A stretch of DNA of 64,000 nt from a virus (IMGVR_UViG_3300037840_000188:1-64000), one strand, 5' to 3'; positions 13,144 to 61,871 are shown, counted from the stretch's first letter. Made by a program: numbers and translations. Notes: a model not told the origin generated them from the sequence alone.

Positions 13144-13313
13144 CCGGTGCGTGGATAGCATGCCGATGGCTCGTTATGGGACACCGGCTCGACCAGGATA
13201 CGCCCGGATGGGATGGTGGGTTAGCGGCCTGCCTTCTCGGCATGCACGATAATGCGCATGAGATGCGGCTGATGATGGATGACGTAATTTCAGTAAAAAA
13301 TAAAATTACTTGA
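13092..13313 (+). CDS. hypothetical protein overlapping DUF3310
   Basis: The frame continues after the DUF3310 stop as VAGAWIACRWLVMGHRLDQDTPGWDGGLAACLLGMHDNAHEMRLMMDD, which looks like a real protein core. The proper start is unclear: the ATG at 13092 lies inside DUF3310, and a later TTG or GTG is possible. Function unknown. Confidence 0.5.
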   Translation: MVPQAPHREIEREFLKVAGAWIACRWLVMGHRLDQDTPGWDGGLAACLLGMHDNAHEMRLMMDDVISVKNKIT

Positions 13314-13340
13314 CGGCTGAGAAGTTTTACGGTAAGCTAT
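13310..13340 (+). promoter_or_regulatory. promoter with TTTACGGTAAG operator before the ABC operon
   Basis: TTGACG (13310-13315) is a good -35. Seventeen bases later TAAGCT is a weak -10. The imperfect palindrome TTTACGGTAAG (13326-13336) lies in the spacer and overlaps the -10. The same motif recurs at 28144, 28455 and 50643. The gene immediately downstream encodes a small protein that could be a repressor. Confidence 0.55.
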
Positions 13341-13346
13341 CTTCGT

Positions 13347-13508
13347 ATGCCAACCGTGATCGTAAAACCTGCAATACATGTTCGCCTGAAACGCCTCGCC
13401 CTCGACGCTGGAAAGAAGCTAGGCGAGTTTCTTCATGACCATCTGGAGGAAAGCCTATCAAGAGCCGAGCGCAGTGTCGCGGGATTCAACAAAAAGAAAA
13501 CCAAATGA
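13347..13508 (+). CDS. small helix-rich protein, possible ribbon-helix-helix regulator
   Basis: 53 aa starting just downstream of the promoter. MPTVIVKPAIHVRLKRLALDAG followed by KKLGEFLHDHLEESL has the strand-helix-helix outline of MetJ/Arc-type regulators: an amphipathic strand with valine, isoleucine and lysine, then two short helices. It overlaps the next gene by ATGA. An autoregulator of this operon is a reasonable guess, not shown. Confidence 0.6.
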   Translation: MPTVIVKPAIHVRLKRLALDAGKKLGEFLHDHLEESLSRAERSVAGFNKKKTK

Positions 13509-14104
13509 GCTGGCTCGACGCAATCAAAGATCTTGTGGTCGAAGAGGACCCGAAGCCGACGACCCAGCTTCAAACGCTGTTGTCGCGGACCAATCTTCCA
13601 CCTGGTAATCTGTACAATATACCGGCGTCGCCACCTCCTGCTTTTCAAGCTCCCGACGCCTTTCTCCAGAAGCTGCGGTCGAAGCTCGCAACGCCGGGCA
13701 GCGCGGTCGAAAAGTTCGAGGCCGTCCTCACCTCTTTATCCGCCATTGCGGATGATCATCTCAGGCTCACTTCTACGCTCTCGGTTCTGAAATCTACCGC
13801 TGGCGTCGAGACTCAGGCTCTGATTCAGGAATACGCTGGTCGTCAGCAGAGGCTTGCATCCGAAGCGCAGGCGTTTGCATCCGTTATCGCGGGACAACAG
13901 AAGTCGGATGTCGATGACAAGCAAACACAGATCGCGGCTATCGACGTTCAGCTTCAACAGTTGTCTATGCAGCGGCAGTCATTGACCTCAGCCATTACGG
14001 ACGCGCAGAGTAAGCTGACCCGCTCGCAGGCCGGATTCGATGCTGCGGTTAGTACTGTGCGTGGAGAGATCGAAGGCGCACTGAGCAAATTGAAAGGATT
14101 ATAA
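13505..14104 (+). CDS. soluble coiled-coil protein, 199 aa (ABC operon)
   Basis: After a short N-terminal helix and a proline-rich linker, residues about 95-195 form a long coiled coil (TQIAAIDVQLQQLSMQRQSL and similar). No transmembrane segment. Position and shape recall accessory coiled-coil proteins of bacterial TelA/XpaC/PspA stress operons, but I see no diagnostic motif. First structural member of the ABC-type operon. Confidence 0.7.
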   Translation: MSWLDAIKDLVVEEDPKPTTQLQTLLSRTNLPPGNLYNIPASPPPAFQAPDAFLQKLRSKLATPGSAVEKFEAVLTSLSAIADDHLRLTSTLSVLKSTAGVETQALIQEYAGRQQRLASEAQAFASVIAGQQKSDVDDKQTQIAAIDVQLQQLSMQRQSLTSAITDAQSKLTRSQAGFDAAVSTVRGEIEGALSKLKGL

Positions 14105-14257
14105 ATGGCCCACAAGTCAATCACGCGAAGAGCCTCTGAGTGCTCGAAGGGGTGCGGACGCAGGACCAGGCACAAGGTTAGCGGCGCTCCAATGTGCGTC
14201 ACATGCGAACTGCTCGCAAAGAATGCCACTGCGCTGATGAAAGGAATCAAAGCATGA
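14105..14257 (+). CDS. small zinc-finger protein, 50 aa
   Basis: Read from the sequence: starts at 14105 directly after the preceding TAA and ends at 14257. Cysteine pairs CSKGC and CVTC with basic residues between them (GRRTRHKVSG) suggest a zinc ribbon. It overlaps the next start by ATGA, so it sits inside the operon. Confidence 0.6.
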   Translation: MAHKSITRRASECSKGCGRRTRHKVSGAPMCVTCELLAKNATALMKGIKA

Positions 14258-15195
14258 CACCATCGCCAAACAAAGGCTACTTTACCGGCCCCGAAGGAAA
14301 GGTAAACGCGACCACATGGGGCGTCATTGCCCTCGGCTTCCTCGTAATCGTCTGGGTCATGGGCGGCAAAATCGGCGATTACCTCGTCAGCGCCGCCGAC
14401 AACACGCTGCACTTTGCCATCGTGGCCGCCGTGCTGCTCTTTATCGTCGCCGCGCTCATCGACCCGAAGAAACGGCTCTGGTATCTTTTCCGGAGCATCG
14501 TGCGCTGGCTGACAAGCATGTTCATCGAACTCGATCCCATCGGTATTCGAAAGTCGTATGTGGAACGCCTTCAGGCCCGCTACGCCGAGTTTCAGAACGC
14601 AGTCGGGACGCTGCGCGGTCAACTGATCAGTGCCCAGAGGAAGGCCGACGCCAAGGCTGCGGAGATCCGCGATCAAGAGGCGAAGTTCGCTATCGCCGTG
14701 AAGAAGAACGACCGGCAGGCAGAGTTGCTATTGGCGAATTCCAAGGTCCGTGCGCAGGGGCTCCTCACTCAGTACGTCAAGTCGATCAATAACCTGACTC
14801 GCATGCAGACGGTCGTCGTTCGGTATCAGGAGATCTGCGGAGTAAAAATCGCCGATCTTCAGGACGACATTAAGACACGCGAGGAGCAGATGGCGCTGAC
14901 GAAGGCTACTCGCGGCATCAGCGGAGCTATCTCTGGCATATTGCGTGGCCTCCCCGAGGCTGACATGTATGAGGAAGTCGGTGCCGTTATCGACACTCAA
15001 TACGATCAGGCCTTGGGTGAGTTCGACAACATCCTCGATATGACGAAAGGTGCCATCAGTAATGCCGATCTCTCGGACGATGCAGCACTCGAAGCGGCGC
15101 TCTCGAAATACGAGTTATCCAGCGGGACGAAGCAGGTAGCCGCTCCAGCCCCAGCACCGCAGCAAAGTACCGACTATTCAGATTTGCTGAAGTAG
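14254..15195 (+). CDS. membrane-anchored coiled-coil protein, 313 aa
   Basis: The start at 14254 is chosen for its ATGA overlap. Two N-terminal membrane helices (about 22-36 and 48-66) are followed by a basic patch and a long coiled coil to about residue 230, then a flexible alanine/proline tail. The layout resembles membrane-bound stress proteins of the XpaC or phage-shock type. No enzyme motif. It probably scaffolds the transporter at the inner membrane; that is inference from operon context. Confidence 0.75.
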   Translation: MTPSPNKGYFTGPEGKVNATTWGVIALGFLVIVWVMGGKIGDYLVSAADNTLHFAIVAAVLLFIVAALIDPKKRLWYLFRSIVRWLTSMFIELDPIGIRKSYVERLQARYAEFQNAVGTLRGQLISAQRKADAKAAEIRDQEAKFAIAVKKNDRQAELLLANSKVRAQGLLTQYVKSINNLTRMQTVVVRYQEICGVKIADLQDDIKTREEQMALTKATRGISGAISGILRGLPEADMYEEVGAVIDTQYDQALGEFDNILDMTKGAISNADLSDDAALEAALSKYELSSGTKQVAAPAPAPQQSTDYSDLLK

Positions 15196-15235
15196 TCACA
15201 CTCGCCATCAATTTCAAGAAAAGGAAACCAGAACT

Positions 15236-17062
15236 GTGCATATCAAACCGTTACCAAAATTTCTCCTCCTTGCCGCTGTAGTCGGTGGCGTTCTGTTCGG
15301 CTATCGACATCTCGTTACCACCGGCACCATCCGTCGACCGAGCATTCTGAAAACCGTGATCCCGCTGAAGGCCGATGAGCTTTCAGCTTCGGTTCTCACT
15401 GCGGGCTCTGTCGCTGCAAAGCCTCTTCCATCCAGCTCGCCACTCCAGCCGTGTGCCGATGGAAACACCTCGAACTGCCTTCAGGGTTCCGTCCAGGAAG
15501 TCGAAACTTGGGCATGGAATGCCAACATGGCGCTCCACTACTCAGTTGGCGGCACCCAGACCACTAAGGGCTCTCTCGCAGCCGCTCACGGCGCGGCGGT
15601 CACTATTCGCCGCCAGGACGACACTGGCCAGATGCAGAGCGATCTGCTCGATTGTGCGCAACGTCTTCTCTCTGATCCGAACGCCTCATGTACGAAGTTC
15701 GTCACCATTATGGGGGATGGCGGCGCGCAGTTTTTTCGCGCCATCAATCCGAAGCTCGCAAAGGTTTGTCCGGATTGCATCGTCAAGACGATTGCGGTTC
15801 TGGGGTACAGTCGCGGGGAAGATGGATTCTGGGGTCCGGCTGCATGGAAAGCGAATCCCGAGAAGGCTAAGGGTGGCGTCGTAGTCGGCGTGCTGCGCGA
15901 CGGTGATTGGAATATCGCGGAGAAATGGGCTGGCCAAAATGCAATCCCCAATAACCCAGACGACACGGTGTACGATCCCAACGCACTGAACTGGATCAAT
16001 GCCGACGATTACGTAAAGGCGGCCAATGCATTCGCGAGTGGTACGGCCTGCATGGACGTACCTATCAAAGGCAAATTGACTGGCGGCAAGGGGCACTACT
16101 GCGCTGACGCGGTGGTCACGTGGACGCCTGGCGACGTTACTGTCGCAAAGAAATGCCAGGGTGGCGCAAAGTGCGAAGGCGCGGTTCCGATCATGACTAC
16201 AGCACAGTCCGTGTTTCAAATGCCATGCATCCTTGTCGGCATCGACCGGTGGATGAAGTCTCATCGGACGGACGTGCAGAATATGATCGCGGCCTCGTTC
16301 GAAGCGGCTGATCAGGTTCGGAGTAACCCGGCTGCGCTACAGAAAGCTGCGGAGATCTCCGCAAAGATTTATAAGGAAGAATCGCCGGAGTACTGGCTTA
16401 AGTACTATCGCGGAGTCACTGAAAGCGACACGGCGGGAGTCCAGGTTCACCTCGGCGGTTCGTCCGTTGCGAATCTGGCGGATAACCTACAAGCCTTCGG
16501 GCTCTCGGGCGGACCATCCCTGTTTGCCGCGACGTACACTACGTTCGGCAAGATCGTGGTTCAACAGTACCCGCGCCTCGTACCGGACTTCCCGCCGGTA
16601 TCTGAGATCCTCGATACCTCGTACGTGGCTGCTCTGCGTGGCTCTCTGCCGGAGAATAATGGGGAGCAGATCATCAAGGCCGATGCCTCCGTTGGCATCC
16701 GAACGGTCGAGGGCAAGAAGAACTACTCGATTCAGTTCGCGAGCGGACGTTCGGACATACTCCCACAGTCGTATGCGGATCTGGATCAGCTCGCATCAGA
16801 CATCAGCCTGACGAACTACAAAGTGGCGCTAAATGGTTATACCGACAACGCACGCTGGCAGGGGATTAACGAACAATCTGCCGACCGTAACCAGCAGTTA
16901 TCCGAGGCGCGGGCGAACTCGGTCAAAGACTATCTGGTGAATAAGGGTATCCGAAACGCCATCCGAGTGCACGGATACGGCGAGGACAATCCTGTGGCCG
17001 ACAACGATACTCCTGCGGGCCGTGCTTTGAATCGGCGGGTGCAGGTGGTAGTCGGCGAATGA
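15236..17062 (+). CDS. substrate-binding protein fused to OmpA-like domain
   Basis: 608 aa from a GTG preceded by AAAGGAAACC. One N-terminal membrane anchor (about 8-27) leads to a periplasmic binding-protein domain of the NMT1/TauA/PhnD type (about 50-440) and a C-terminal OmpA peptidoglycan-binding domain (about 490-608). The last carries IQFASGRSDILPQSYADLDQL, NGYTDNARW, LSEARANSVKDYL and NRRVQVVV. No lipobox cysteine is present. The fusion would tie the binding protein to the cell wall. The ligand is unknown. Fusions of this kind occur in bacterial genomic islands; a phage-located copy with its permease and ATPase is unusual. Confidence 0.88.
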   Translation: MHIKPLPKFLLLAAVVGGVLFGYRHLVTTGTIRRPSILKTVIPLKADELSASVLTAGSVAAKPLPSSSPLQPCADGNTSNCLQGSVQEVETWAWNANMALHYSVGGTQTTKGSLAAAHGAAVTIRRQDDTGQMQSDLLDCAQRLLSDPNASCTKFVTIMGDGGAQFFRAINPKLAKVCPDCIVKTIAVLGYSRGEDGFWGPAAWKANPEKAKGGVVVGVLRDGDWNIAEKWAGQNAIPNNPDDTVYDPNALNWINADDYVKAANAFASGTACMDVPIKGKLTGGKGHYCADAVVTWTPGDVTVAKKCQGGAKCEGAVPIMTTAQSVFQMPCILVGIDRWMKSHRTDVQNMIAASFEAADQVRSNPAALQKAAEISAKIYKEESPEYWLKYYRGVTESDTAGVQVHLGGSSVANLADNLQAFGLSGGPSLFAATYTTFGKIVVQQYPRLVPDFPPVSEILDTSYVAALRGSLPENNGEQIIKADASVGIRTVEGKKNYSIQFASGRSDILPQSYADLDQLASDISLTNYKVALNGYTDNARWQGINEQSADRNQQLSEARANSVKDYLVNKGIRNAIRVHGYGEDNPVADNDTPAGRALNRRVQVVVGE

Positions 17063-17241
17063 ATCGCTTTGCTGGTGCTTTATCTGTCCTGCTTGTCATC
17101 CTCGGCATCTGGCTCTGCTATCTGGCGTTCGAGACCGTACGCTGGGCCGCGTGGACACTGCTGTCGCATATGGGTGGCATTGCCGCGCTGTTGGCGTGTG
17201 GGGTGGTTTTCTGGTTCTGGCGTGGACTAAGGAAGGACTAA
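17059..17241 (+). CDS. small membrane protein, 60 aa
   Basis: Two membrane helices (LSVLLVILGIWLCYLAF and MGGIAALLACGVVFWFW) with a basic C-terminus. It overlaps the binding-protein stop by ATGA and the DUF1003 start by TAATG, so it is translated with them. Probable accessory membrane subunit. Confidence 0.65.
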   Translation: MNRFAGALSVLLVILGIWLCYLAFETVRWAAWTLLSHMGGIAALLACGVVFWFWRGLRKD

Positions 17242-17558
17242 TGGAAAATCTTACCAGATCGCAGCGCGCCTCGGATACCATTACGGAGTTCTGCGGATCG
17301 TGGACGTTCATTATTGTCTTCAGTGGAATCACTATCGGCTGGATGGCACTCAATACGATCCTGATATTCTGGGGCCGCTTTGATCCATATCCGTTTATTC
17401 TCCTGAATCTGTTTCTGACCGTCATCAGTACTTTTCAATCGCCGCTCATCATGATGAGTCAAAATCGACAGGTGGAGCGCGACCGCTTGATTGTTCAGGG
17501 CCTGCACGCGAAGTTTGACGAGCAACGAGAAATGCTGGAGAGGCTATTGAAGCGATGA
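17241..17558 (+). CDS. DUF1003 family membrane protein
   Basis: 105 aa. The ATG at 17241 is used in place of an upstream ATG in the neighbour. Strong family pattern: FCGSWTFIIVF, WMALNTILIFW, FDPYPFILLNLFLTVISTFQSPLIMMSQNRQ, then a cytosolic coiled coil. DUF1003 proteins are two-helix membrane proteins of unknown function found widely in bacteria; I know of no established role in ABC import. Overlaps the permease start by ATGA. Confidence 0.85.
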   Translation: MENLTRSQRASDTITEFCGSWTFIIVFSGITIGWMALNTILIFWGRFDPYPFILLNLFLTVISTFQSPLIMMSQNRQVERDRLIVQGLHAKFDEQREMLERLLKR

Positions 17559-18340
17559 CCCCTCGCGACCTCCTCGCTCCCAACCGCCCGCTCCACGCCC
17601 AATCCTTTGCGATCCTGACCGCTGCGTGGATCGCCCTGATGTTGATCCTGTGGTCATCTGCCGGTGCGCGGTACCTTCCAACGCCGCTCGACGTGCTTAA
17701 GTCGTTTCCCGGGCTCTGGAACGAGGACGGCCTCGGTGTGCAGATCTGGACTAGCTTTGAGTTGAACCTGGAGGCGGCATTCTGCACTTTCATCGCGTCC
17801 CTTCTGATCGCCTACGCGACCGTGCTGCCCGTATTTCGCCCACTAGCGATGCTGATCAGCTCGGGCCGGTATAACGGCATGATCGGATTGCCGCTGGTTT
17901 TTCTGTCGCTTCTGCACGATCCGCATTGGGTGAAGATCGCATTGCTTATGTTCGGAACCGGCGTCTTCGCGGTTCTATCCCTGGTTCGAATGATCGAAGC
18001 TATCCCGCAGGAACTATTTGACCATTCACGCACGCTCCGCATGTCGGAGTGGCGTGTGTTTTATGAGGTTGTCATCCTTGGACAGTTCGATCAAGTGCTT
18101 GACATCTTTCGCGGCACGCTCGCAATGTTGTGGATGTTGCTCCCGATGGTCGAGGGCTACTTTCGATTTGAGGGCGGCGTCGGCACTCTTATGCTGACCG
18201 AGGCCAAGCATTTAAACCTCGATTCGGTGTTCTGCATCATGTTTGTCGTACTGGCGATTGGCTTCGCGCAGGATTTAGTGCTCGGTGAGTTGCGGGTGAT
18301 GATTTGCCCGTATGCGGAGTTGGGAGTCGAAAGGAAATGA
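17555..18340 (+). CDS. ABC transporter permease (NitT/TauT type)
   Basis: 261 aa with about six membrane segments. ARYLPTPLDVLKSFPGLW near the N-terminus matches the LP-P-V-F segment typical of TauC/SsuC/NrtB. HSRTLRMSEWRVFYEVVILGQ corresponds to the EAA loop that docks onto the ATPase, though the EAA residues are only partly kept. Together with the binding protein and ATPase it forms a complete importer. The EAA drift may mean specialised function. Confidence 0.85.
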   Translation: MTPRDLLAPNRPLHAQSFAILTAAWIALMLILWSSAGARYLPTPLDVLKSFPGLWNEDGLGVQIWTSFELNLEAAFCTFIASLLIAYATVLPVFRPLAMLISSGRYNGMIGLPLVFLSLLHDPHWVKIALLMFGTGVFAVLSLVRMIEAIPQELFDHSRTLRMSEWRVFYEVVILGQFDQVLDIFRGTLAMLWMLLPMVEGYFRFEGGVGTLMLTEAKHLNLDSVFCIMFVVLAIGFAQDLVLGELRVMICPYAELGVERK

Positions 18341-18510
18341 ATATGAAAACCAAGTTACTCATCTGCCGCTGCGGCGATTGCTCCCATTGGGAGGTCATTC
18401 ACCGCGCCGACGATACTACCCTGAAGTGCGTCACCTGCGGCGTCGAATACACAGCGACGGTCACGATAGACCCGCACGAGGACCTGCATTACGTCGAGCA
18501 CGAGGCATGA
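18337..18510 (+). CDS. small zinc-ribbon protein, 57 aa
   Basis: The start at 18337 overlaps the permease stop. CRCGDCSHW and CVTCGVEY form a zinc ribbon. It also overlaps the ATPase start by ATGA, so it is embedded between the two transporter core genes. Role unknown. Confidence 0.6.
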   Translation: MNMKTKLLICRCGDCSHWEVIHRADDTTLKCVTCGVEYTATVTIDPHEDLHYVEHEA

Positions 18511-19322
18511 TCGCTACGGCTACTCGCACCGACACCCTGCTCTCTATCGAGAACGTCTCGCTCTCTTATGGGCAGAACGTCGTGCTTCGCGATGTAAATG
18601 CTTCCATCAAAGACTTGGTGCGACCTGGGTGCGTGACGGGGCAGGTTGTTTCTATTCTCGGAAGATCCGGCTGCGGAAAGACATCCCTACTTCGGATTAT
18701 CGCTGGTCTTCAGAAAGCGACAAGCGGATCGGTAACACTGGGGAAAGATCGTGCGCCAGCGAAAGCCGGTGATGTCGGCTTGGTGAGTCAGAATTACCTG
18801 CTCTATCGCAATAGAGACGTGCTGAGTAATCTCGTGATCGCGGCGCGTCAGTCCCGCGACAATCCGAACGCCAGGATAGCGACACAAAGGGCTATTGACC
18901 TTCTCGACGATTTCGGCTTGCTCGACAAGAAACACTTATATCCATCGCAATTATCAGGAGGCCAGAAACAGAGAGTATCCATCGCCCAGCAAATATTGGC
19001 CTGCGGTGAGATGCTTCTCTGGGACGAGCCGACCGCCGGACTGGACCCAATCGCCAAGAAGAAGGTGTGCGAACTGGTCGGTAAGGTAGCCAATCGAGAT
19101 GAGCTTTCAAGTTGCCTGATCGTCACGCATGACATCCCGTCCGCCGTAACTGTCAGCGACACCTTATGGTTGATCGGCACGCCGCATGGAGAGACCGGCT
19201 CGCGGATCGTTCAGGAGTATGACTTGATCTCTATGGGGCTGGCTTTCCAGCCGGATATACAGCGCCTGCCCGAATTCACCGCCACCGTCCGCGAGCTTCA
19301 GGATCGCTTTGCGACCCTCTGA
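18507..19322 (+). CDS. ABC transporter ATPase
   Basis: 271 aa from the ATG at 18507. Has Walker A GRSGCGKTS, a Q-loop (VSQNYLLY), signature LSGGQKQR, Walker B MLLWDEP with a D-loop AGLD, and switch histidine VTHD. All catalytic residues are present. Closest layout is SsuB/TauB/NrtC-type importers. It powers the adjacent permease. Its last 25 bases overlap the convergent membrane-protein gene on the other strand, so no terminator fits between them. Confidence 0.92.
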   Translation: MIATATRTDTLLSIENVSLSYGQNVVLRDVNASIKDLVRPGCVTGQVVSILGRSGCGKTSLLRIIAGLQKATSGSVTLGKDRAPAKAGDVGLVSQNYLLYRNRDVLSNLVIAARQSRDNPNARIATQRAIDLLDDFGLLDKKHLYPSQLSGGQKQRVSIAQQILACGEMLLWDEPTAGLDPIAKKKVCELVGKVANRDELSSCLIVTHDIPSAVTVSDTLWLIGTPHGETGSRIVQEYDLISMGLAFQPDIQRLPEFTATVRELQDRFATL

Positions 19323-52657: not shown

Positions 52658-53368
52658 TTATGCGGCAGTATTGATAGTGGCGGGCGATGAAGGATTCGAA
52701 CCCTCTGCCTCGGAGATAGAAGCTCCGCGCTCTGGTCCAGATGAGCTAATCGCCCGTAAATCAAGCAACCCGTGATCAAATTCCCAATGGCAATTACGGC
52801 AGAGCTGAACTACATTCTTCCTCGCGTTGGCGGTTGCAACAGTAGCGTCATCGGGAAATTTAGAGAGCGGGATTATGTGCGCCAATTCAACGTGACGAGA
52901 ATATCCACAGGCAGCACATGGCTTACTCAATATGTCGACATGTAGATGTCGCGCCATTTCACGGATCTGGCTATCCTTCCACGAAGGATGTTTCACTGTA
53001 TCTCTCGTACGGAACTCTCCAAGGGTCATGGACTGTCGTTCCACGAATTTAAAATGTCCAGCGCAGCGAATGCAGGCGCTTGAATAATAATCCATCCTGC
53101 GTCCGCATGCGCAAATCTTTTTATTCTCTTTCCGCCATTTACGGACACGCTCAACATTGCGCGCTTTTGCATTTTCCCTCCTTTCCGTTTTTATTGCCTC
53201 CTGACAACCATGGCAATGCAATGTGCGCGTGCTCAATACGATCCCGCATCGCCCACAATGACCTTCTGGCTTTCTCTTGGGGAATGCTTTGTCGTTATAG
53301 ATTGCGGCACATGAGCGACCGCAAAATTTTGGGTTCAGGGTTTTCTTCGAGCAATTCAAACAGTCCAT
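52658..53368 (-). CDS. HNH homing-type endonuclease, C-terminus overlaps tRNA-Arg
   Basis: 236 aa. Zinc sites CLNCSKKTLNPKFCGRSC and CGRCGIVLSTRTLHCHGC precede an HNH core VELAHIIPLSKFPDDATVATANA...NVVQLCRNCHWEFDHGLL. Endonucleases of this build are free-standing homing enzymes common among phage tRNA clusters. The last 33 codons run through the downstream tRNA-Arg(UCU) gene, so the same bases encode protein and tRNA. Confidence 0.8.
   Translation of the reverse strand: MDCLNCSKKTLNPKFCGRSCAAIYNDKAFPKRKPEGHCGRCGIVLSTRTLHCHGCQEAIKTERRENAKARNVERVRKWRKENKKICACGRRMDYYSSACIRCAGHFKFVERQSMTLGEFRTRDTVKHPSWKDSQIREMARHLHVDILSKPCAACGYSRHVELAHIIPLSKFPDDATVATANARKNVVQLCRNCHWEFDHGLLDLRAISSSGPERGASISEAEGSNPSSPATINTAA
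52678..52756 (-). tRNA. tRNA-Arg(UCU)
   Basis: Cloverleaf with acceptor CGGGCGA/TCGCCCG, anticodon loop CTTCTAT (TCT), T-loop TTCGAAT and encoded CCA. Wholly contained in the 3' part of the HNH gene. Confidence 0.92.
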
Positions 53369-53385
53369 TATTTATTTATAATTTT

Positions 53386-53463
53386 TGGTGATCGCGCGCA
53401 GATTCGAACTGCGGGCCTGTCGCTTAGGAGGCGACCGCTCTGTCCTGCTGAGCTACGCGATCA
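53386..53463 (-). tRNA. tRNA-Arg(CCU)
   Basis: Acceptor TGATCGC/GCGATCA, anticodon loop CTCCTAA (CCT), canonical T-loop, encoded CCA. Its 5' half overlaps the end of the 53424-53702 gene. Confidence 0.92.
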
Positions 53464-53702
53464 AGCTTTTCGAGCCACACATCCTCACACTGCTGCGAAC
53501 AGAATACAGGCTCTGACGGCAGTGCGCATTGAGCACAGAATCCAACGAGTCGCGGGATCTGAATCCAACGACCCGTCGGCGTCGCCACTACAGAACCATA
53601 CGGGACATCAAGCCGCTTCGCTATGGCGCGGACCTGCCTCTCGGTCGCGCCAGACGTTACGACTTGTCTTCCATCATTATTGTGATGGCGGCGGAATTTC
53701 AT
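53424..53702 (-). CDS. small zinc-type protein ending inside tRNA-Arg
   Basis: 92 aa. ERQVRAIAKRLDVPYGSVVATPTGRWIQIPR looks like a helix plus beta-hairpin DNA-binding region, then CAQCALPSEPVFCSQQC forms a zinc site. The last 13 codons and the stop lie in the tRNA-Arg(CCU) gene. ATGA overlap with the next HNH gene. Confidence 0.6.
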   Translation of the reverse strand: MKFRRHHNNDGRQVVTSGATERQVRAIAKRLDVPYGSVVATPTGRWIQIPRLVGFCAQCALPSEPVFCSQQCEDVWLEKLDRVAQQDRAVAS

Positions 53703-54253
53703 TGCACCACCTCTCCCTGCGGAGTATCGTTCTTATACCACAGGTACCGCTGCCAATCAGGGCGGTCGAGGGCTGCTTCCCTCAACATGAAACGCGAACT
53801 GAATACCGTATACGGCAGTGGCTTGCGCAGCAGCTTCATTCCGGCCTCTTCTGGCGTGCGGTCCGCCTTGCGGTGGTTGCAGGGCTGGCAGCAGGCCACG
53901 AGGTTTTCGTACGACGATGCGCCTCCCCTGCTTCGCGGAATCACGTGATCGAGGGTCAATTCGAACGCGCCCTTGATCTTTCCGCAGTACAGACATTGAT
54001 GCCGGTCGCGCGTGAGGATTCCACGGCGACTTATCATCCGCGTACGGCGCGGCACCCGGCGATACCTCGTCAGGCGGATTACCGATGGCACGAGATGCGA
54101 ACGGTGGCCGCTATGGACCTTGATCTCGGATACCTCTTCCATTTCGGCTGCACCCTTTGCAAGGAGTACGAACGCACGACGAGCGTTGATGATGGCGGTC
54201 GGCTCGAATGCGGCGTTAAGTTCAAGCACTGGAATTTTACGGAGGTCGGTCAT
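53699..54253 (-). CDS. HNH endonuclease (phage type)
   Basis: 184 aa with start at 54253 (MTDLRKIPVLELNAAFEPTAIINARRAF). The HNH core CLYCGKIKGAFELTLDHVIPRSRGGASSYENLVACCQPCNHRK has two CxxC pairs and DHV...N...H catalytic residues. This family sits near phage tRNA clusters and terminases. Probably a homing or nicking nuclease. Confidence 0.88.
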   Translation of the reverse strand: MTDLRKIPVLELNAAFEPTAIINARRAFVLLAKGAAEMEEVSEIKVHSGHRSHLVPSVIRLTRYRRVPRRTRMISRRGILTRDRHQCLYCGKIKGAFELTLDHVIPRSRGGASSYENLVACCQPCNHRKADRTPEEAGMKLLRKPLPYTVFSSRFMLREAALDRPDWQRYLWYKNDTPQGEVVQ

Positions 54254-54275
54254 TGTTGTTCTCTTCAAGTTTAAA

Positions 54276-54353
54276 TGGTATGCCCGGAGAGACTCGAACT
54301 CTCGCACTATTGGTTAAAAGCCAATTGCTCTGAAGCCGCTGAGCTACGGGCAC
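54276..54353 (-). tRNA. tRNA-Lys(UUU)
   Basis: Acceptor GTGCCCG/CGGGCAT with a terminal G-U pair, anticodon loop CTTTTAA, T-loop TTCGAGT, encoded CCA. Confidence 0.9.
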
Positions 54354-54359
54354 GTGAAA

Positions 54360-54434
54360 TGGGAGCCCCTGAGAATTTTGAAATCTCGACCCTCTCTGTG
54401 TAAAAGAGACGCTCTGCCTCTGAGCTAAGGGGCT
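54360..54434 (-). tRNA. tRNA-Val(UAC)
   Basis: Acceptor AGCCCCT/AGGGGCT, anticodon loop TTTACAC, T-loop TTCAAAA (last base unusual), discriminator C then CCA. Confidence 0.85.
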
Positions 54435-54440
54435 GTAAAG

Positions 54441-54517
54441 TGGTGGCGCTTGTTGGTATCGAACCAACCACCCTCGGATTATGAGTCCGCTGCTCTAACC
54501 GTCTGAGCTAAAGCGCC
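54441..54517 (-). tRNA. tRNA with CAU anticodon (elongator Met or Ile2)
   Basis: Acceptor GGCGCTT/AAGCGCC, anticodon loop CTCATAA, CCA encoded. The body resembles elongator Met; a lysidine-modified Ile(AUA) reader cannot be excluded. Confidence 0.88.
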
Positions 54518-54521
54518 GATC

Positions 54522-54608
54522 TGGCTCCGTGCCGTGGACTCGAACCACGAGATGAGAATTAACTCGGCGCATTAACAGTGCGCTGCCATGCCATTAGGCG
54601 AGCACGGA
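54522..54608 (-). tRNA. tRNA-Asn(GUU) with a long variable arm
   Basis: Acceptor TCCGTGC/GCACGGA, anticodon loop CTGTTAA, T-loop TTCGAGT, discriminator G, CCA. Between anticodon stem and T stem lie 17 bases that can form a GAG/CTC mini-helix, as in class II tRNAs, not the usual five bases of tRNA-Asn. Confidence 0.88.
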
Positions 54609-54617
54609 ATAAAGCTT

Positions 54618-54696
54618 TGGTGAACGCGGTCGGCATCGAACCGACGACCTTCTCCTTAAGAGGGAGATGCTGCTACCGCACTGAGCTACGCGTTCA
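54618..54696 (-). tRNA. tRNA-Lys(CUU)
   Basis: Acceptor TGAACGC/GCGTTCA, anticodon loop CTCTTAA, T-loop TTCGATG, CCA encoded. Confidence 0.88.
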
Positions 54697-54704
54697 CAAA
54701 AACT

Positions 54705-54780
54705 TGGTAGAGATGACGGGATTTGAATCCGTGTTCTCGCCGTGAAAGGGCGATGTGCTGGACCGCTGCACTACATCTCC
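54705..54780 (-). tRNA. tRNA-Glu(UUC)
   Basis: Acceptor GGAGATG/CATCTCT, anticodon loop CTTTCAC, T-loop TTCAAAT, CCA encoded. Confidence 0.9.
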
Positions 54781-54915
54781 GTGTTAAACTGAAACCTAAA
54801 TCAGACGACGCTCTTCACCGCGTAACCTGGACGCGCCGCCTCACTGAAAGATCCGAAACGCTCATCGGAGTACGCGGCGATGGTGAAGTGCTTTCGGATC
54901 TGCTTCCCAAAAAAA
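54781..54915. other. inter-tRNA spacer with inverted repeat
   Basis: No gene or cloverleaf found. GATCCGAAA (54850-54858) and TTTCGGATC (54892-54900) form a perfect 9-bp inverted repeat enclosing 33 bases; a second pair, CTTCACC/GGTGAAG on the minus strand, overlaps it. It may fold in the precursor transcript or mark a decayed gene. Confidence 0.4.
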
Positions 54916-54992
54916 TGGCGACGCTGGTGAGGCTCGAACTCACGCATCTTCTGATTGAGGGTCAGACGGCTTACCTGTTTGCCCACAGCGTC
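54916..54992 (-). tRNA. tRNA with CUC anticodon (Glu), C33 in place of U33
   Basis: Acceptor GACGCTG/CAGCGTC, anticodon loop CCCTCAA, T-loop TTCGAGC, discriminator G, CCA. The universal U33 is C. The D-arm (GGCAAACAGGTAAGCC) is tRNA-Gln-like, so charging identity is uncertain. Confidence 0.7.
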
Positions 54993-55065
54993 AAAAAAAT
55001 AGGCTGCCGGATGACCCACGGCATTTCCCGGTCACGCCTGTCACGCACGACCTTCGGCCTCGATA

Positions 55066-55140
55066 TGGCGGGGATGACGGGTGCTGGCCCCGCTTCGTTT
55101 CCGTAGACAGCGGAATGCATATCTGATCTGCCACATCCCC
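55066..55140 (-). tRNA. divergent tRNA-Asp(GUC) without canonical elbow
   Basis: 75 bases. Perfect acceptor GGGGATG/CATCCCC, anticodon stem TTCCG/CGGAA with loop CTGTCTA, 5-bp T stem with one G-U, three-bp D stem, discriminator G and CCA. The T-loop is GCCAGCA, not TTCRANY, and the D-loop lacks GG, so the normal D-loop/T-loop contact cannot form. Likely missed by standard scans. Confidence 0.6.
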
Positions 55141-55145
55141 AAATC

Positions 55146-55224
55146 TGGTGATCCTGCCGTGACTTGAACACGGGACCTCTCGGTTCGCAACCGAACGCGC
55201 TAATCCATCTGCGCCACAGGATCA
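55146..55224 (-). tRNA. tRNA-Arg(GCG)
   Basis: Acceptor TGATCCT/AGGATCA, anticodon loop TTGCGAA, T-loop TTCAAGT, CCA. A GCG anticodon is uncommon, since bacteria normally read CGC with ICG (gene ACG). Confidence 0.88.
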
Positions 55225-55227
55225 AAA

Positions 55228-55306
55228 TGGGAGTCCCGAGAGGATTTGAACCTCCAACTGACCCGCGTTCGAAGCGCGGCGCTCTGGTCCGTTGAGCTAC
55301 GGGGCC
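55228..55306 (-). tRNA. tRNA-Arg(UCG)
   Basis: Anticodon loop CTTCGAA, T-loop TTCAAAT, CCA encoded. The acceptor GGCCCCG/CGGGACT has a C-A mismatch at the third pair and a terminal G-U. Confidence 0.82.
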
Positions 55307-55314
55307 GAAAAATT

Positions 55315-55391
55315 TGGCGAGCACGGATGGATTTGAACCACCGAATGTCAGGGCCAGAGCCTGATGCCTTAAGCCGCTTGGCGACGTGCCC
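55315..55391 (-). tRNA. tRNA-Gln(CUG)
   Basis: Acceptor GGGCACG/CGTGCTC, anticodon loop CTCTGGC, T-loop TTCAAAT, discriminator G (Gln-like), CCA. Confidence 0.88.
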
Positions 55392-55397
55392 GTGAAC

Positions 55398-55473
55398 TGG
55401 CGGGGAGTGGGGGATTCGAACCCATCCATACTGAGATCCAAAGGCTCAGGTCCTGCCATTAAACGAACTCCCC
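55398..55473 (-). tRNA. tRNA-Gln(UUG)
   Basis: Acceptor GGGGAGT/ACTCCCC, anticodon loop CTTTGGA closed by a C-T mismatch, T-loop TTCGAAT, discriminator G, CCA. Confidence 0.86.
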
Positions 55474-55481
55474 TAGATAAG

Positions 55482-55557
55482 GGTGGCCGATGGGATTTGA
55501 ACCCATGAGTAGATGCTCCACAGGCATCTGCCTTAGACCAGACTTGGCGACGGCCAC
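55482..55557 (-). tRNA. tRNA-His(GUG), CCA not encoded
   Basis: Acceptor GTGGCCG/CGGCCAC, anticodon loop CTGTGGA, T-loop TTCAAAT. The 3' end reads C then CTT, so CCA must be added. No G at position -1 is encoded. Confidence 0.86.
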
Positions 55558-55560
55558 ATT

Positions 55561-55636
55561 TGGTGCTGAAGGAGCGAATCGAACGCTCGTTGCTGGGGTT
55601 TCAAGCCAGTGCCGTGACCATGTAGGCTACTTCAGC
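55561..55636 (-). tRNA. tRNA-Phe(GAA)
   Basis: Acceptor GCTGAAG/CTTCAGC, anticodon loop TTGAAAC closed by a C-C mismatch (31-39), T-loop TTCGATT, CCA. Confidence 0.86.
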
Positions 55637-55640
55637 GAAA

Positions 55641-55716
55641 TGGTGGAATCGGAGCGAATCGAACGCTCGGCCTCCGGAGTGCAAAACCGGCGCTCTCCCA
55701 TCTGAGCTACGACCCC
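55641..55716 (-). tRNA. tRNA-Ala(UGC)
   Basis: Anticodon loop TTTGCAC, T-loop TTCGATT, CCA. The acceptor GGGGTCG/CGATTCC contains the G3-U70 pair that marks tRNA-Ala. Confidence 0.92.
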
Positions 55717-55724
55717 GTGAAAAT

Positions 55725-55802
55725 TGGTGGCGGTGATTGGATTTGAACCAATGGCCTGAAGCTTATGAGGCTTCCGCGCTGACCAGACTGCGCTACACCG
55801 CT
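55725..55802 (-). tRNA. tRNA with CAU anticodon and A1-C72 mismatch (initiator-like?)
   Basis: Anticodon loop CTCATAA, T-loop TTCAAAT, CCA. The first acceptor pair is A-C, unpaired as in initiator tRNA, but the anticodon stem lacks the three G-C pairs of true initiators. Second CAU tRNA in the array. Confidence 0.8.
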
Positions 55803-55812
55803 CTGAAGCTTT

Positions 55813-55857
55813 TGGTGCAGATAGAAAGGATTGAACTTTCGACCTCACCCTTATCAG
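55813..55857 (-). tRNA. 3' half of tRNA-Ile(GAU), split by a transposon
   Basis: Holds the 3' side of the anticodon arm, T-arm and CCA. The last eight bases (CTTATCAG on the plus strand) are the target duplication. Joined to 60287-60330 it gives a normal tRNA-Ile with loop CTGATAA and acceptor GCAGATA/TATCTGC. Confidence 0.88.
55850..55857. repeat. 8-bp target-site duplication, left copy
   Basis: CTTATCAG at 55850-55857 is repeated exactly at 60287-60294 on the other side of the element, the duplication length expected for IS1595-family elements. Confidence 0.85.
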
Positions 55858-55884
55858 GGTAATTATATAGTTGGCTAAGTGATT

Positions 55885-56139
55885 TCAGGTTCGCCGGGAA
55901 TTCAAGCCAGCGCAATATCCGCAGTTCTGCCAGCCATCGGTTCCAAAAGTTCGATCCAGCCATTCTTTCGCGGCATTCCTGTCTTGTGAATAATATTTTG
56001 GATGCTGTGTGGTGGTAGCACTTACGGACTCGCAACTGGCGTGATGAACTTTACGGGACTCTGGACGTTCATTTAGAACAAAGCCGCGCTGTTCGACTTT
56101 GATGAGGTTGAGTTCCTGATTTGTGGCGATCCGATCCAT
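55885..56139 (-). CDS. passenger protein with Cys cluster, 84 aa
   Basis: The start at 56139 (MDRIATNQELNLIKVEQRG) is preferred over a longer ATG. RKVHHASCESV...AKEWLDRTFGTDGWQNCGYC looks like a conserved small domain with a CESV and a final CGYC site, which I associate with mobile bacterial elements. Function unknown. Confidence 0.55.
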   Translation of the reverse strand: MDRIATNQELNLIKVEQRGFVLNERPESRKVHHASCESVSATTTQHPKYYSQDRNAAKEWLDRTFGTDGWQNCGYCAGLNSRRT

Positions 56140-56178
56140 CGGGAAATTATACTCCCGATTTTGAATCCCCAAAAGGCT

Positions 56179-56367
56179 TCAGGATGCCTTCTTCGCCCGC
56201 CGTCTCGCCCGCGACCGCTTCAGCCGCGCTTCTTCCTTAACAACGGCTTCCTTCGGGATCGTCAGCGAGTGACGGAACATGCGGTCGAAGTTCTGGAACT
56301 GGTCAGGGCCCTCACAGCGCAGTGCAATGTCCGTGATGGTTTCGGCCTGCGTCGGTTCGTGCTTCAT
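56179..56367 (-). CDS. small basic passenger protein, 62 aa
   Basis: ENFDRMFRHSLTIPKEAVVKEEARLKRSRARRRAKK-type ending (exact: FDRMFRHSLTIPKEAVVKEE). The same build is found in the 62755-63000 protein of the second element (phenylalanine-rich centre, LxxVPKxA, basic tail). Such proteins are frequent partners of IS1595 transposases. Confidence 0.6.
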   Translation of the reverse strand: MKHEPTQAETITDIALRCEGPDQFQNFDRMFRHSLTIPKEAVVKEEARLKRSRARRRAKKAS

Positions 56368-56400
56368 GTACGCCTCATGCCGCTTCCATAATAACCCGTT

Positions 56401-56670
56401 TCAAAGTTCCGGTAGTTTGGTCTTTTCGATGGACAGAAAGTAAACGTGGTCTGCGTCGAAAGTGTAGTAGAGCGCAGCATCAACCGTGTGGCCGCAAATG
56501 AACCATACCTGAGAGCCTTCCAATGGGCAACCCGCCTCCGGGTCTCGTGACAGGATTGTCTCAGCGCCTTCCATGAACTCGTCTGCCCTGCGAACGATTG
56601 GCTCGATGTAGTCCATCTCAAGCTCAAACCGGTGGTCACGGATGATGGTCCTGATTTTATCCGTGGGCAC
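56401..56670 (-). CDS. RelE/ParE-like toxin partner of Panacea antitoxin
   Basis: 89 aa. GSQVWFICGHTVDAALYYTFDADHVYFLSIEKTKLPEL has the RelE/ParE outline of two strands with basic and aromatic residues and a VYFLSI ending. It overlaps the DUF4065 gene by 14 bases, the arrangement of PanA-type toxin-antitoxin pairs. Catalytic residues are not certain. Confidence 0.6.
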   Translation of the reverse strand: MPTDKIRTIIRDHRFELEMDYIEPIVRRADEFMEGAETILSRDPEAGCPLEGSQVWFICGHTVDAALYYTFDADHVYFLSIEKTKLPEL

Positions 56671-57241
56671 GGAGATGTGTTTCTGCGAGCGACTGGAGTC
56701 GTAGTCCGCGCATTCGTTCGTGATCGGTCGGTGGCCTGCGGCTCACCAACGCCGTGCTGTATGGAATCGTTTCTTTCAGGTGTGCGGCCTTCCACCCCAG
56801 AAAGACATGCGACTGGTCGCTGATCTCGACGGCGCTCAACTTCCAGAATTTCTCTACAGTCTGGCGGATCAGATTAACGTCGGCACCTGAGAACTTTGAT
56901 AGATCGGGAGAGCGGAGCGCAATCGGTTTTTTTTGCGTGCGCCCGTAGTACGGCACTTCCTGCCAGGCAAAATCGCCTCTCTTTATCATGGCTTCCGTGA
57001 TCACCTTCAGGCGGCGCGGAGCTGGCCCCTGCGGAAGCTTGAAGTACTCCTGCCCGGTGATCGGCTCTCCATGCGTCAGAAACGCAGAGAAGTCGGCGTG
57101 AAACAAAAGCTTGTTGAGTTTTATTGCTCCGAACTTCGGATCGGCCTGGCACCACTCCGCGATCAGCAGAATCAACTCCTGGAGCTTCTCGTCGTTCGGG
57201 CGGTGTCGGTGTCGTGGTGTCGGTGTCGTGGTGGGCGGCAT
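56657..57241 (-). CDS. Panacea/DUF4065 (SocA-like) antitoxin
   Basis: 194 aa. KFGAIKLNKLLFHADFSAFLTHGEPITGQEYFKLPQGPAPRRL is the typical Panacea domain (KLxKLLYxAD, G-P-------GP-). The family supplies antitoxins to many unrelated toxins. The downstream RelE-like gene is its likely partner. Divergent from the XRE/HNH genes across 94 bases. Confidence 0.82.
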   Translation of the reverse strand: MPPTTTPTPRHRHRPNDEKLQELILLIAEWCQADPKFGAIKLNKLLFHADFSAFLTHGEPITGQEYFKLPQGPAPRRLKVITEAMIKRGDFAWQEVPYYGRTQKKPIALRSPDLSKFSGADVNLIRQTVEKFWKLSAVEISDQSHVFLGWKAAHLKETIPYSTALVSRRPPTDHERMRGLRLQSLAETHLRAHG

Positions 57242-57293
57242 GGCTGGTGCCTTCCTTGATTCAAGTATAACGTGATTGTCAATTGATACGTAA

Positions 57294-57305
57294 AGTCCGT
57301 GGACT
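57294..57305. promoter_or_regulatory. AGTCCGTGGACT palindrome, probable controller box
   Basis: A perfect 12-bp palindrome in the divergent gap between the antitoxin and XRE genes, 30 bases before the XRE ATG. It resembles C-boxes (GACT/AGTC half-sites) bound by restriction-modification controller proteins. Confidence 0.5.
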
Positions 57306-57335
57306 CATTGTCATCGGGATGATCTGATTATCCAG

Positions 57336-57554
57336 ATGAGCAAGCGACGCGAAGCGCAAATTCAAAAGCGCTTCGGGCAACGAGTTCGGGCATTACGAAA
57401 AGAGAAAGGGCTTTCCCAGGAGGCGCTGGCCCTCGCCTGTGACCTTGACCGCACGTACGTCGGCGGAGTGGAGCGCGGCGAACGAAATATCAGCCTCATC
57501 AACATCTACAAAATTGCCGAAGCCCTCGGTATTGATGCAAAGGAACTGTTTTGA
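57336..57554 (+). CDS. XRE-family controller protein
   Basis: 72 aa. [52 protein letters not shown] is a canonical Cro/C1 helix-turn-helix, the size of restriction-modification C proteins. Its stop overlaps the nuclease TTG (TTGA). It probably times nuclease expression through the palindrome upstream. Confidence 0.88.
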
Positions 57555-58261
57555 CATCGCGGGCTTCGAAGCTTCCCAAAGAACTCTTGGCACGTATCGA
57601 AGCCGTCACGGCCAAACGCGCCAGATTTGTCTTGGACGGCATTGTGAAGAACGGCAAACTCACCACGGAGCAGATCAATCAGGCAGGCTATGATCATCCG
57701 CCTCGGGCCGTGCAGGACGCCAAGGACCTCGGGTTCAGGATCAAACGCACCACCGTAAAGCACACGAACGGACGATCTATCGCCGCCTATGAATTCGATG
57801 AAGGCGAACTGGACCCAAGCAAAGCAGGACGCCGCGCTATTCCGAAAAAAGAAAGAGACGAAATCATTCATGCCGCTGGTGACAAGTGCCAGATTTGCAA
57901 TGCCGTACACAATTTACAGGTAGATCACCGCATCCCCTACGAGGTGGCCGGTGAAGCCTCGGCAGCCGAAGCGCATCCATTTCAGGTTCTTTGTGGTTCC
58001 TGTAACCGCAAAAAGTCCTGGGCCTGCGAACACTGCCAAAACCGCCTTGAAATAGTTGACCCAAAAATTTGCCGTTCCTGCTATTGGGCAGGTGCGACAG
58101 CCTACACTCATATCGCCATGCAGGAGCAGCGTCGCGCCGATGTTGTGTGGACTGCGGGTGAAGTGCGAGACTTTGAGCGGTTGCATTACACCGCAAAGAG
58201 CCACGATAGAAGCGTGCCGGATGAAATTAAGGTGATCGTGAAAAAGGTGTTAGGCAAATAG
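57551..58261 (+). CDS. HNH restriction endonuclease candidate (TTG start)
   Basis: 236 aa. The first 95 residues hold a winged-helix-like region ([23 protein letters not shown]). The HNH core is [23 protein letters not shown]...[19 protein letters not shown], with two zinc pairs and the DHRIPY catalytic histidine. Adjacent C protein and convergent adenine methyltransferase make it the likely restriction enzyme of the set. It overlaps the methyltransferase end by 12 bases. Confidence 0.8.
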
Positions 58262-59176
58262 AACTGACTGATGCTGCACCGTCGCGAAATCCCGAAGTGA
58301 AAGAGACGCTGGCTTTTCGCTGATGGGGAGCACATGGGACACATACAGAGACTCGACCGTAACGTCGTCACGGCCATTGAGAGTCGCCTGGCTGGAACGC
58401 CCGACATCTAGGAGAATTCGCCGGGCTACTGTCTCGGGAAGCGGCTCGCCATAATCGGTTTCCCCGCAGGAGCCGTCATAGCTGAGGATGAACGGAATTC
58501 GCCGTTCGTTCAGTATTGACAACCCTTTGATCATCTGATCACGGCTGACACCGGCGATGTATCGCCGGTCACGACCGCCGCTTGTTCCCTGATAGGGAGG
58601 GTCCAGATAGTAAAAATCTCCCTCTTGCGCCCACGAAAACAAGGTTGAAAAATCAGCGTGCATCGCCTGGCATTTTCCAGCGAGTAGTCGATGCGCCGCG
58701 AATAGTTCCGCCTTCATCGTTTTAGGCTTCGTGCCGGTGCGCCGTTTGTCGGGTGACTGATTGAAGTCTCCAGCAGGGTTGAAGCGAACAGCATTCTTGA
58801 CGCACCGCGCAAGCAGGTACAGCAATTTTGCGGGATGTCGATCCGCGTTAAACTCTGATCGGATTTCGTAGTATGCGTCGATGGGTTTAGAGCGCTCCCT
58901 TTGCCAGAGCGCCTCATACTGCCGCGCGACTGGACCCGGATCGTCAATAATCGACTGCCACAGGCGAATTAGCGGTTCGAGTGCATCTCCCACGATGTAA
59001 GAGCGAAATGTCTTGTGATAAGCCGCCGCCAGCGTAACAGCAGAGGAACCGGCGAATGGCTCAATCAGCCGGAAGTATTGGTTCGGAGGGACGTGGCTGA
59101 GAATCGCTGTTGCTAGTCTTCGTTTACTTCCCTGATACGGAATGGGGTGAGGAACGGAAAACCGCGATCTGTCCAT
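58250..59176 (-). CDS. D12-class adenine-N6 DNA methyltransferase
   Basis: 308 aa from the ATG at 59176. PHPIPYQGSKRRLA is the N-terminal SAM region, IEPFAGSSAVTLAA is motif I and FYYLDPPYQGT is the catalytic DPPY. This is the Dam/DpnM type. It protects DNA from the neighbouring nuclease. Recognition site unknown. Confidence 0.92.
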   Translation of the reverse strand: MDRSRFSVPHPIPYQGSKRRLATAILSHVPPNQYFRLIEPFAGSSAVTLAAAYHKTFRSYIVGDALEPLIRLWQSIIDDPGPVARQYEALWQRERSKPIDAYYEIRSEFNADRHPAKLLYLLARCVKNAVRFNPAGDFNQSPDKRRTGTKPKTMKAELFAAHRLLAGKCQAMHADFSTLFSWAQEGDFYYLDPPYQGTSGGRDRRYIAGVSRDQMIKGLSILNERRIPFILSYDGSCGETDYGEPLPETVARRILLDVGRSSQATLNGRDDVTVESLYVSHVLPISEKPASLSLRDFATVQHQSVLFA

Positions 59177-59260
59177 CGGATACTGGCTCCTATGATACAC
59201 AAAGTCATCACGCCGATTCTATCGACGCTTTCCGCGTGAAGGTTTAGGATAAGGCGACCT

Positions 59261-60256
59261 TCAGGCGACCGCCGCTTCCGAATTGTCTGTTGGCGCGGGC
59301 GGTACCTTTCCGGTCAACTGATCGAACATCAGGCGCTTGCCAACGATCCCCTTGACAGCCAAATCGAACCGCTCCGCGTCCGTCAGGTGACGGTGATTGA
59401 ACCGATAGGCTTGCTCATCGAGATAGCGGAAAAGGTGGAACGGCTCAACCGAAACATACGTGCCGTGCAGCCCGCGCTTGAGCAGGCTCCAGAAGTTCTC
59501 GCACCCGTTCGTGTGGACAGCACCGCGAACATATTCAACCGCATGATCTACGACCTGGTGGCGAAACTCATCCAGCCCTTCATAAGACTTCAGCGAGTCG
59601 GTGAACAGCGCGGAGCCAGCCGCCACGTGTTCGCGCACTTCAGCCTGAAGCGCCTTCTTCTTCCGGTTCGATACGACCTTCGTGCGGATCTGACTTGGCT
59701 TCCCATCCTTGCCGCGCTCCAGAATGCCCATGACCATAGTTTTGTCTTTGCCACCCGTGCCGGTGATCTTCACGGCTCGCACATCCTTGTGCATATTACG
59801 TGCCTTCTGCCCGATAAAAGTCTCATCTGCTTCAACTTCTCCGGTCAGTTTGTCGGGCGCTTCCATACCGAATGCGACGCGGATTCTGTGATCCAAAAAC
59901 CACGCAGTCTTTTGAGTGACGTTCAGGGCGCGGGCGATCTCGCAGCTTGAGATGCCGTTTTTGCAGTTGCTCACCATCCAGGTAGCCGTCAGCCACTTGT
60001 CCAGCCCGAGCGGGGAGTCTTCGTAAATCGTTCCGGTCTTCAGGGAGAACTGACGCTGGGAGTGCTTGTTACGGCACTGCCAGCGGCTCTGGTTCGCCAG
60101 GAATATCACATCGGCACAGCCGCAGGTCGGACACGTGACGCCGTTGGGCCAGCGCCGCGCTACTACGTACTCCCGGCAGTTGTCGGGATTTGCGAAGTAA
60201 ACGATGGCTTCCTGTAGGCTGGTTGGCTCTTGTTCCATGCCTTTATTATCAGGCAT
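59261..60256 (-). CDS. IS1595-family (ISXO2-like) transposase
   Basis: 331 aa. The N-terminal zinc ribbon CPTCGCADVIFLANQSRWQC is followed by FSLKTGTIYEDSPL. The catalytic core EVEADETFIGQKARN, ALFTDSLKSYEGL and HTNGCENFWSLLKRGLHGTY marks the ISXO2-like DDE-type domain. Full length and lies 30 bases from the right inverted repeat, so the element may be active. Confidence 0.93.
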   Translation of the reverse strand: MPDNKGMEQEPTSLQEAIVYFANPDNCREYVVARRWPNGVTCPTCGCADVIFLANQSRWQCRNKHSQRQFSLKTGTIYEDSPLGLDKWLTATWMVSNCKNGISSCEIARALNVTQKTAWFLDHRIRVAFGMEAPDKLTGEVEADETFIGQKARNMHKDVRAVKITGTGGKDKTMVMGILERGKDGKPSQIRTKVVSNRKKKALQAEVREHVAAGSALFTDSLKSYEGLDEFRHQVVDHAVEYVRGAVHTNGCENFWSLLKRGLHGTYVSVEPFHLFRYLDEQAYRFNHRHLTDAERFDLAVKGIVGKRLMFDQLTGKVPPAPTDNSEAAVA

Positions 60257-60286
60257 TTTGTCCGCTTAGTCAACTATATAATTACC

Positions 60287-60294
60287 CTTATCAG
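60287..60294. repeat. 8-bp target-site duplication, right copy
   Basis: Second copy of CTTATCAG, identical to 55850-55857. An exact duplication suggests a fairly recent insertion. Confidence 0.85.
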
Positions 60295-60330
60295 GGGTGC
60301 GCTCTGAATCCGACTGAGCTATATCTGCGA
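60287..60330 (-). tRNA. 5' half of tRNA-Ile(GAU), split by a transposon
   Basis: Contains acceptor GCAGATA, D-arm and the 5' side of the anticodon arm; the break falls in the anticodon loop. See 55813-55857 for the other half. Confidence 0.88.
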
Positions 60331-60335
60331 AAATG

Positions 60336-60412
60336 GAGCCTCCGGCCTCGATTTGAACGGGCATCCTGCTGTTTACAAAACAGCCGCTCTACCATTGGAG
60401 CTACGGAGGCAT
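60336..60412 (-). tRNA. tRNA-Thr(UGU) with bulged T stem
   Basis: Acceptor GCCTCCG/CGGAGGC, anticodon loop TTTGTAA, T-loop TTCAAAT, CCA. The 3' side of the T stem reads CGAGGC, so one A is bulged. Confidence 0.82.
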
Positions 60413-60413
60413 G

Positions 60414-60488: not shown

Positions 60489-60551
60489 ATTTTTGACATC
60501 ACCAAATTTTCAAACATCAATCGCGCCGATAGTTCTGTCGGTCGCGCGAAA

Positions 60552-60630: not shown

Positions 60631-60635
60631 AAATC

Positions 60636-61509: not shown

Positions 61510-61543
61510 AATTTCAGTTTACTCCTCGGGTTTGCCTTCCCAT

Positions 61544-61862: not shown

Positions 61863-61871
61863 CCCGCATAG

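Follow-up and report, generated by a model that had tools for sequence, protein, structure and literature searches.

A fixed-order five-gene module joining an OmpA-bearing ABC importer to a PspA-like membrane protein in huge phages and some Bacteroidota

PspA and Vipp1 coat stressed membranes, and importers of the NitT/TauT type, such as TauABC, SsuABC, NrtABCD and CmpABCD, move solutes with a substrate-binding protein (SBP), a permease and an ATP-binding cassette (ABC) ATPase. In bacteria, we found the pairing of an ABC importer with a relative of ESCRT-III only as one sentence of a comparative-genomics study, according to which PspA and transmembrane (TM)-bearing Snf7 homologues, together with an AAA+ ATPase, may share operons with an ABC ATPase, a permease and a PBPB-OmpA protein (Ravi et al. 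2024, PMC11237479). The same study suggested that bacteria link the remodelling of membranes to the transport of solutes; it does not mention viruses. Here we analyse an operon of ten plus-strand genes (g1-g10, positions 13,347-19,322) in the window, bases 1-64,000 of the 140,995-base virus record IMGVR_UViG_3300037840_000188 from IMG/VR. Like the bacterial operon, it holds a putative TM-bearing PspA/Snf7 homologue, an ABC ATPase, a permease and an SBP-OmpA protein in one operon; the phage copies differ in lacking the AAA+ gene, in having a soluble coiled-coil protein and in keeping one five-gene order. A preliminary description of this DNA knew of no phage system of this composition, and for phages we likewise found none in the literature outside subscription journals and supplements, where an earlier description is possible, but the bacterial operon had already been mentioned by Ravi et al. 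The module is not described in the main text of a jumbo-phage review (10.3390/v13010063), of the huge-phage paper (10.1038/s41586-020-2007-4) or of the Jug-phage preprint (PMC12363816), and the text counts of two Lak phage papers include no ABC transporter.

The core of the operon consists of five genes in fixed order that recur in megaphages and in some Bacteroidota. A search of IMG/VR with the SBP-OmpA protein as query yielded 67 loci, 22 of them on contigs longer than 200 kb. Clustering of neighbouring open reading frames (ORFs) at 72 loci and the window revealed five near-universal families, SBP-OmpA (70), g2 and the ATPase (67 each), g4 (66) and the permease (64), while the next commonest neighbour family occurred at only 23 loci. 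The order g2, g4, SBP-OmpA, permease, ATPase was constant, also among phages as distant as 20-30% identity, and most seeming gaps were contig ends or were filled by tblastn. The permease and g4 were present in all 15 Lak genomes, and all five genes in Lak-C1 (Lak megaphages, 540 kb) and in LR756500 (462 kb). The 735-kb phage LR756501, the largest published phage genome, also carries the five genes in order (LR756501.1 640320-656736, locus L133); this locus was reached via the permease search alone, which makes it a test of synteny free of SBP-based selection. Pairwise ratios of non-synonymous to synonymous substitution (dN/dS) were mostly 0.01-0.25 for all five core genes, demonstrating that they are under purifying selection. 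The preliminary description had suggested a comparison with other phage contigs and with bacteria, and the five-gene order recurs in both.

The core gene g4 (14254..15195, 313 residues) probably encodes a membrane-anchored homologue of PspA, Vipp1 and Snf7, placing it in the ESCRT-III superfamily. Two N-terminal TM helices are predicted, and an AlphaFold2 model based on 45 phage sequences shows the TM helices as a hairpin, with long helices on the cytoplasmic side (predicted local distance difference test (pLDDT) 72.5). When this model was searched against 350,542 chains of the PDB, the top 15 matches were all Vipp1 or PspA, with a best E-value of 7.8e-4. Profile-profile comparison with hhalign gave 87-90% probability against sets of 25-27 PspA_IM30 proteins, compared to less than 4% for the negative controls (five unrelated neighbour families and g2 against g4). 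Relatives of g4 in bacteria and in a relative of the megaphages matched Pfam PspA_IM30 (PF04012) at 3.5e-7, 9.8e-7 and 5.2e-6, just below the cut-off (30.5 bits for the best, gathering cut-off 33.9). When 148 genomes were scanned independently with PspA_IM30, one of the bacterial g4 genes was recovered, at 9.5e-8. Like PspA, Vipp1 and LiaH, g4 opens helix 1 with a DP motif (D in 40 and P in 44 of 45 sequences) and has a long helical hairpin and a membrane-facing disposition; it differs from them in its two N-terminal TM helices, and the window protein scores below the Pfam cut-off. Judged by the basic residues that follow TM2, the PspA-like part may lie on the cytoplasmic side. The two-helix coiled-coil membrane protein of the preliminary description is thus present, but its likely PspA/ESCRT-III kinship, which emerged from the fold search and the profile comparison, had been overlooked. 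Stand-alone PspA-like proteins are phage-borne likewise, in Acinetobacter phage ME3 and, beside terD, in Jug phages, where no importer module is mentioned. The second coiled-coil protein, g2 (13505..14104, 199 residues), is soluble, has no Pfam family and has homologues at the same position at 67 loci. It matched the PspA profile weakly (34% probability; 3% against g4), so its reading as another ESCRT-III protein is at most tentative. A TelA/XpaC (toxic-anion) identity of the coiled-coil proteins was rejected for want of a Pfam match.

The other three core genes encode the importer. The product of g5 (15236..17062, 608 residues) combines an N-terminal TM anchor, whose helix has no lipobox, with a NitT/TauT-type SBP domain and a C-terminal OmpA domain (1.7e-18). 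In its AlphaFold2 model (pLDDT 87.7), the SBP domain folds like TauA (6ssy, TMt 0.75), SsuA, NrtA and CmpA, while by sequence it matched no solved SBP in the PDB. In OmpA domains a conserved Asp and Arg hold the diaminopimelate of peptidoglycan; D537, N552 and R559 of this domain are invariant in 48 sequences. The conserved residues of the SBP domain, W94, D128, D161, S192, D196, W296, P298 and D300, lie at strand ends, the ligand-binding region of such proteins. Their acidic and aromatic character suggests a cationic or zwitterionic ligand and argues mildly against one of the anion or sulfonate type. The permease g8 (17555..18340, 261 residues) matched BPD_transp_1 at 2.7e-6, above the cut-off, and the best solved relatives of its profile were CmpB (2.9e-18) and NrtB (6.1e-16), from bicarbonate and nitrate importers. 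The ATPase g10 (18507..19322, 271 residues; ABC_tran 7.3e-26) has every catalytic motif, with Walker A K58, LSGGQ, D173-E174 and H208 invariant across relatives. The complete importer with a wall-binding SBP that the preliminary description had recognised is therefore borne out by the three family matches and the intact motifs. It shares its SBP fold, permease family and ATPase motifs with TauABC, SsuABC, NrtABCD and CmpABCD, and differs from them in the TM anchor and OmpA domain of the SBP and in the putative ESCRT-III-like partner.

The SBP domain was also matched in nine of 395 Bacteroidota genomes, strongly in eight. At the seven bacterial loci other than L006, a three-gene locus considered below, the module stands in identical order in 7/7, with at most one core gene per locus left uncalled by crude ORF choice (the ATPase at L095, the permease at L097 and g2 at L101). 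At L096, L098 and L099, from Flavobacteriaceae-like genomes (a lineage label read from neighbouring genes), the module is followed by, or lies near, an AAA+ gene with AAA_lid_6. The module adjoins ATP synthase genes at L096 and L098. A quick tree of the SBP placed the window in an all-viral clade and bacteria at few positions among the viral sequences, indicating that transfer between phages and Bacteroidota, in one direction or the other, has happened.

How these parts might work together can be proposed from the protein families and their synteny. We put at roughly 45% the probability that the module is an ATP-driven, peptidoglycan-tethered importer coupled to a coat of ESCRT-III type by which the host inner membrane is maintained or repaired. 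The name 'envelope maintenance module' is as tentative as the single complex, the coat and its coupling. In favour of this reading are the constant gene order in distant phages, the purifying selection, the PspA-like fold and profile of g4, the conserved ATPase and OmpA residues, the known coating of stressed membranes by PspA and Vipp1, and the bacterial proposal of Ravi et al. The permease and ATPase would work with an SBP held in the inner membrane by its N-terminal helix and on peptidoglycan by its OmpA domain. The operon products would form one membrane assembly in which g2 is a soluble coiled-coil partner, and the ESCRT-III-like part of g4 may coat or remodel the inner membrane on its inner side. 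The importer, tethered to the wall, could drive or gate the g4 coat by capturing ligand and hydrolysing ATP. In this way the phage would preserve the seal and the energised state of the host inner membrane while a long infection runs its course, or when rivals that damage membranes are present. Of the uptake, stress or envelope-remodelling roles suggested in the preliminary description, an envelope or uptake role is plausible, but the PspA-like member and the five-gene core had been overlooked.

Several points weigh against an envelope-maintenance role. The g4 model is only moderate (predicted template modelling score 0.48), the window g4 itself has no Pfam PspA_IM30 match, and coiled coils inflate such similarities to PspA. 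The phage module is accompanied by no AAA+ disassembly ATPase, and the AAA+ gene of the Flavobacteriaceae-like loci had no homologue at the phage loci or anywhere in the 141-kb record to which the window belongs. L006, a contig of a Saprospiraceae metagenome-assembled genome, has the SBP, permease and ATPase without g2 and g4, and the importer can therefore stand alone. It is a still more tentative proposal that megaphages carry, as a standard component of infection, an ESCRT-III-like remodelling machine in the host inner membrane, which an ABC transporter tethered to peptidoglycan powers or gates. That the Lak phages, the 462-kb phage and the 735-kb phage have all retained the module makes it likely to matter for life as a huge phage, and the shared kit suggests that huge phages manage the host inner membrane during infection. 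This provides a shared hypothesis on how very large, mostly uncultured phages act on the host envelope, and it is testable since the five genes can be expressed in laboratory strains.

The chief rival is nutrient uptake: as an auxiliary metabolic importer, the module would bring a nutrient, cofactor or osmolyte into the infected cell, and the only task of the PspA-like and coiled-coil proteins would be to stabilise the surrounding membrane. The completeness of the importer and its intact ATPase motifs, the closeness of the permease to bicarbonate and nitrate importers, the fold shared with TauA, SsuA, NrtA and CmpA, and the version without g2 and g4 at L006 all fit such a role. It is nevertheless the less probable account, as g2 and g4 stand beside the importer in nearly all phage loci with room for them, W94, D128, D161, S192, D196, W296 and D300 are unlike an oxyanion site, and no metabolic partner gene is conserved near the module among the loci compared. 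We consider it unlikely that the module serves superinfection exclusion or lysis control, with a wall-tethered sensor and an ESCRT-III-like coat sealing the lesions made by incoming DNA or delaying premature lysis. PspA is known to respond to phage secretins, and the window operon faces an endolysin gene. Zorya ZorB similarly joins an OmpA-type peptidoglycan-binding domain to a membrane sensor, in a weak match confined to the OmpA domain of g5. However, the module also occurs on bacterial chromosomes, and its flanks in other phages are genes of replication, recombination and nucleotide metabolism with no conserved lysis neighbour, so a partnership with lysis genes was rejected. Unlike Zorya, the operon has no ZorA/MotA stator (no MotA-like gene was found among its genes) and no ZorC, ZorD or ZorE. 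A defence system was also rejected, since the PADLOC matches covered only the OmpA, ATP-binding and coiled-coil parts.

The presence of the same module on Bacteroidota chromosomes could also mean that a bacterial island was joined to the phage by misassembly or by recent chance capture. We regard this as highly improbable for the window, and for the module in general the misassembled-island reading is already refuted, since the module occurs in Lak genomes, LR756500, LR756501 and dozens of IMG/VR contigs, and 20 of the 31 records tested also carry a terminase. The all-viral clade of the window in the SBP tree, the purifying selection and the GC content, which is even across the operon without a break, likewise speak against it. 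The record has family matches to a portal (1.9e-10), a major head protein (1.7e-9), a DNA polymerase/primase (6e-35), a helicase and an endolysin (3.4e-30), as well as 23 tRNA genes arrayed at window positions 52678-62037. The operon is flanked by thyX, DUF3310 and the convergent endolysin gene. Both the flanks and the placement inside phage sequence given in the preliminary description were thus upheld.

The ten genes of the operon overlap or abut, with ATGA or TAATG junctions at 13505, 14254, 17059, 17241, 17555, 18337 and 18507, consistent with the single ATGA-coupled plus-strand operon described before. Every gene named at that time was recovered from ORFs and family matches, including the SBP-OmpA fusion, permease, ATPase, DUF1003 and both coiled-coil proteins. 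The count of eight proteins with three tiny genes was too low, as four of the ten genes are tiny, and the operon's supposed own promoter is not supported, as it amounts to one consensus match in a region with 4 matches against 3.6 expected by chance. Neither DUF1003 nor the tiny genes belong to the module; they are accessory. The DUF1003 membrane protein g7 (17241..17558; PF06210, 2.5e-27) had no homologue at the other loci examined and was rejected as a system component because it was seen in this window only. The ORF g1 (13347..13508) encodes 53 residues without a family match, possibly ribbon-helix-helix-like by impression, and has a homologue at the equivalent position in the nearest relative, L012. 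The ORF g3 (14105..14257) encodes a 50-residue zinc-type miniprotein (CxxxC..CxxC) with no homologue among the related loci examined. The 60-residue membrane protein g6 (17059..17241) has a homologue in L012 only, and the zinc ribbon g9 (18337..18510; 57-61 residues, CxxC..CxxC) has homologues in L012, L003 and L027.

Further observations concern the surroundings of the module. In Lak-C1 (MK250029.1) the module and the terminase gene are a few kilobases apart (318723-319697 and 324-331 kb), and the terminase gene of this recoded genome reads through several TAG codons. At 23 related loci, small UvrB/UvrC-motif proteins, often multicopy, are encoded on the downstream side of the module (for example L029:11885-12382). 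Directly upstream of the module on one IMG/VR viral contig is a gene for an 814-residue protein resembling the major vault protein (L003:3689-6133; MVP_shoulder 4.6e-22, Vault_3 4.3e-10); it was rejected as a partner because it is confined to this single contig (L003 = L055). Two related zinc-ribbon transposase-like genes were noticed by eye in the same phage record (window 59261-60256 and L009:15546-16454).

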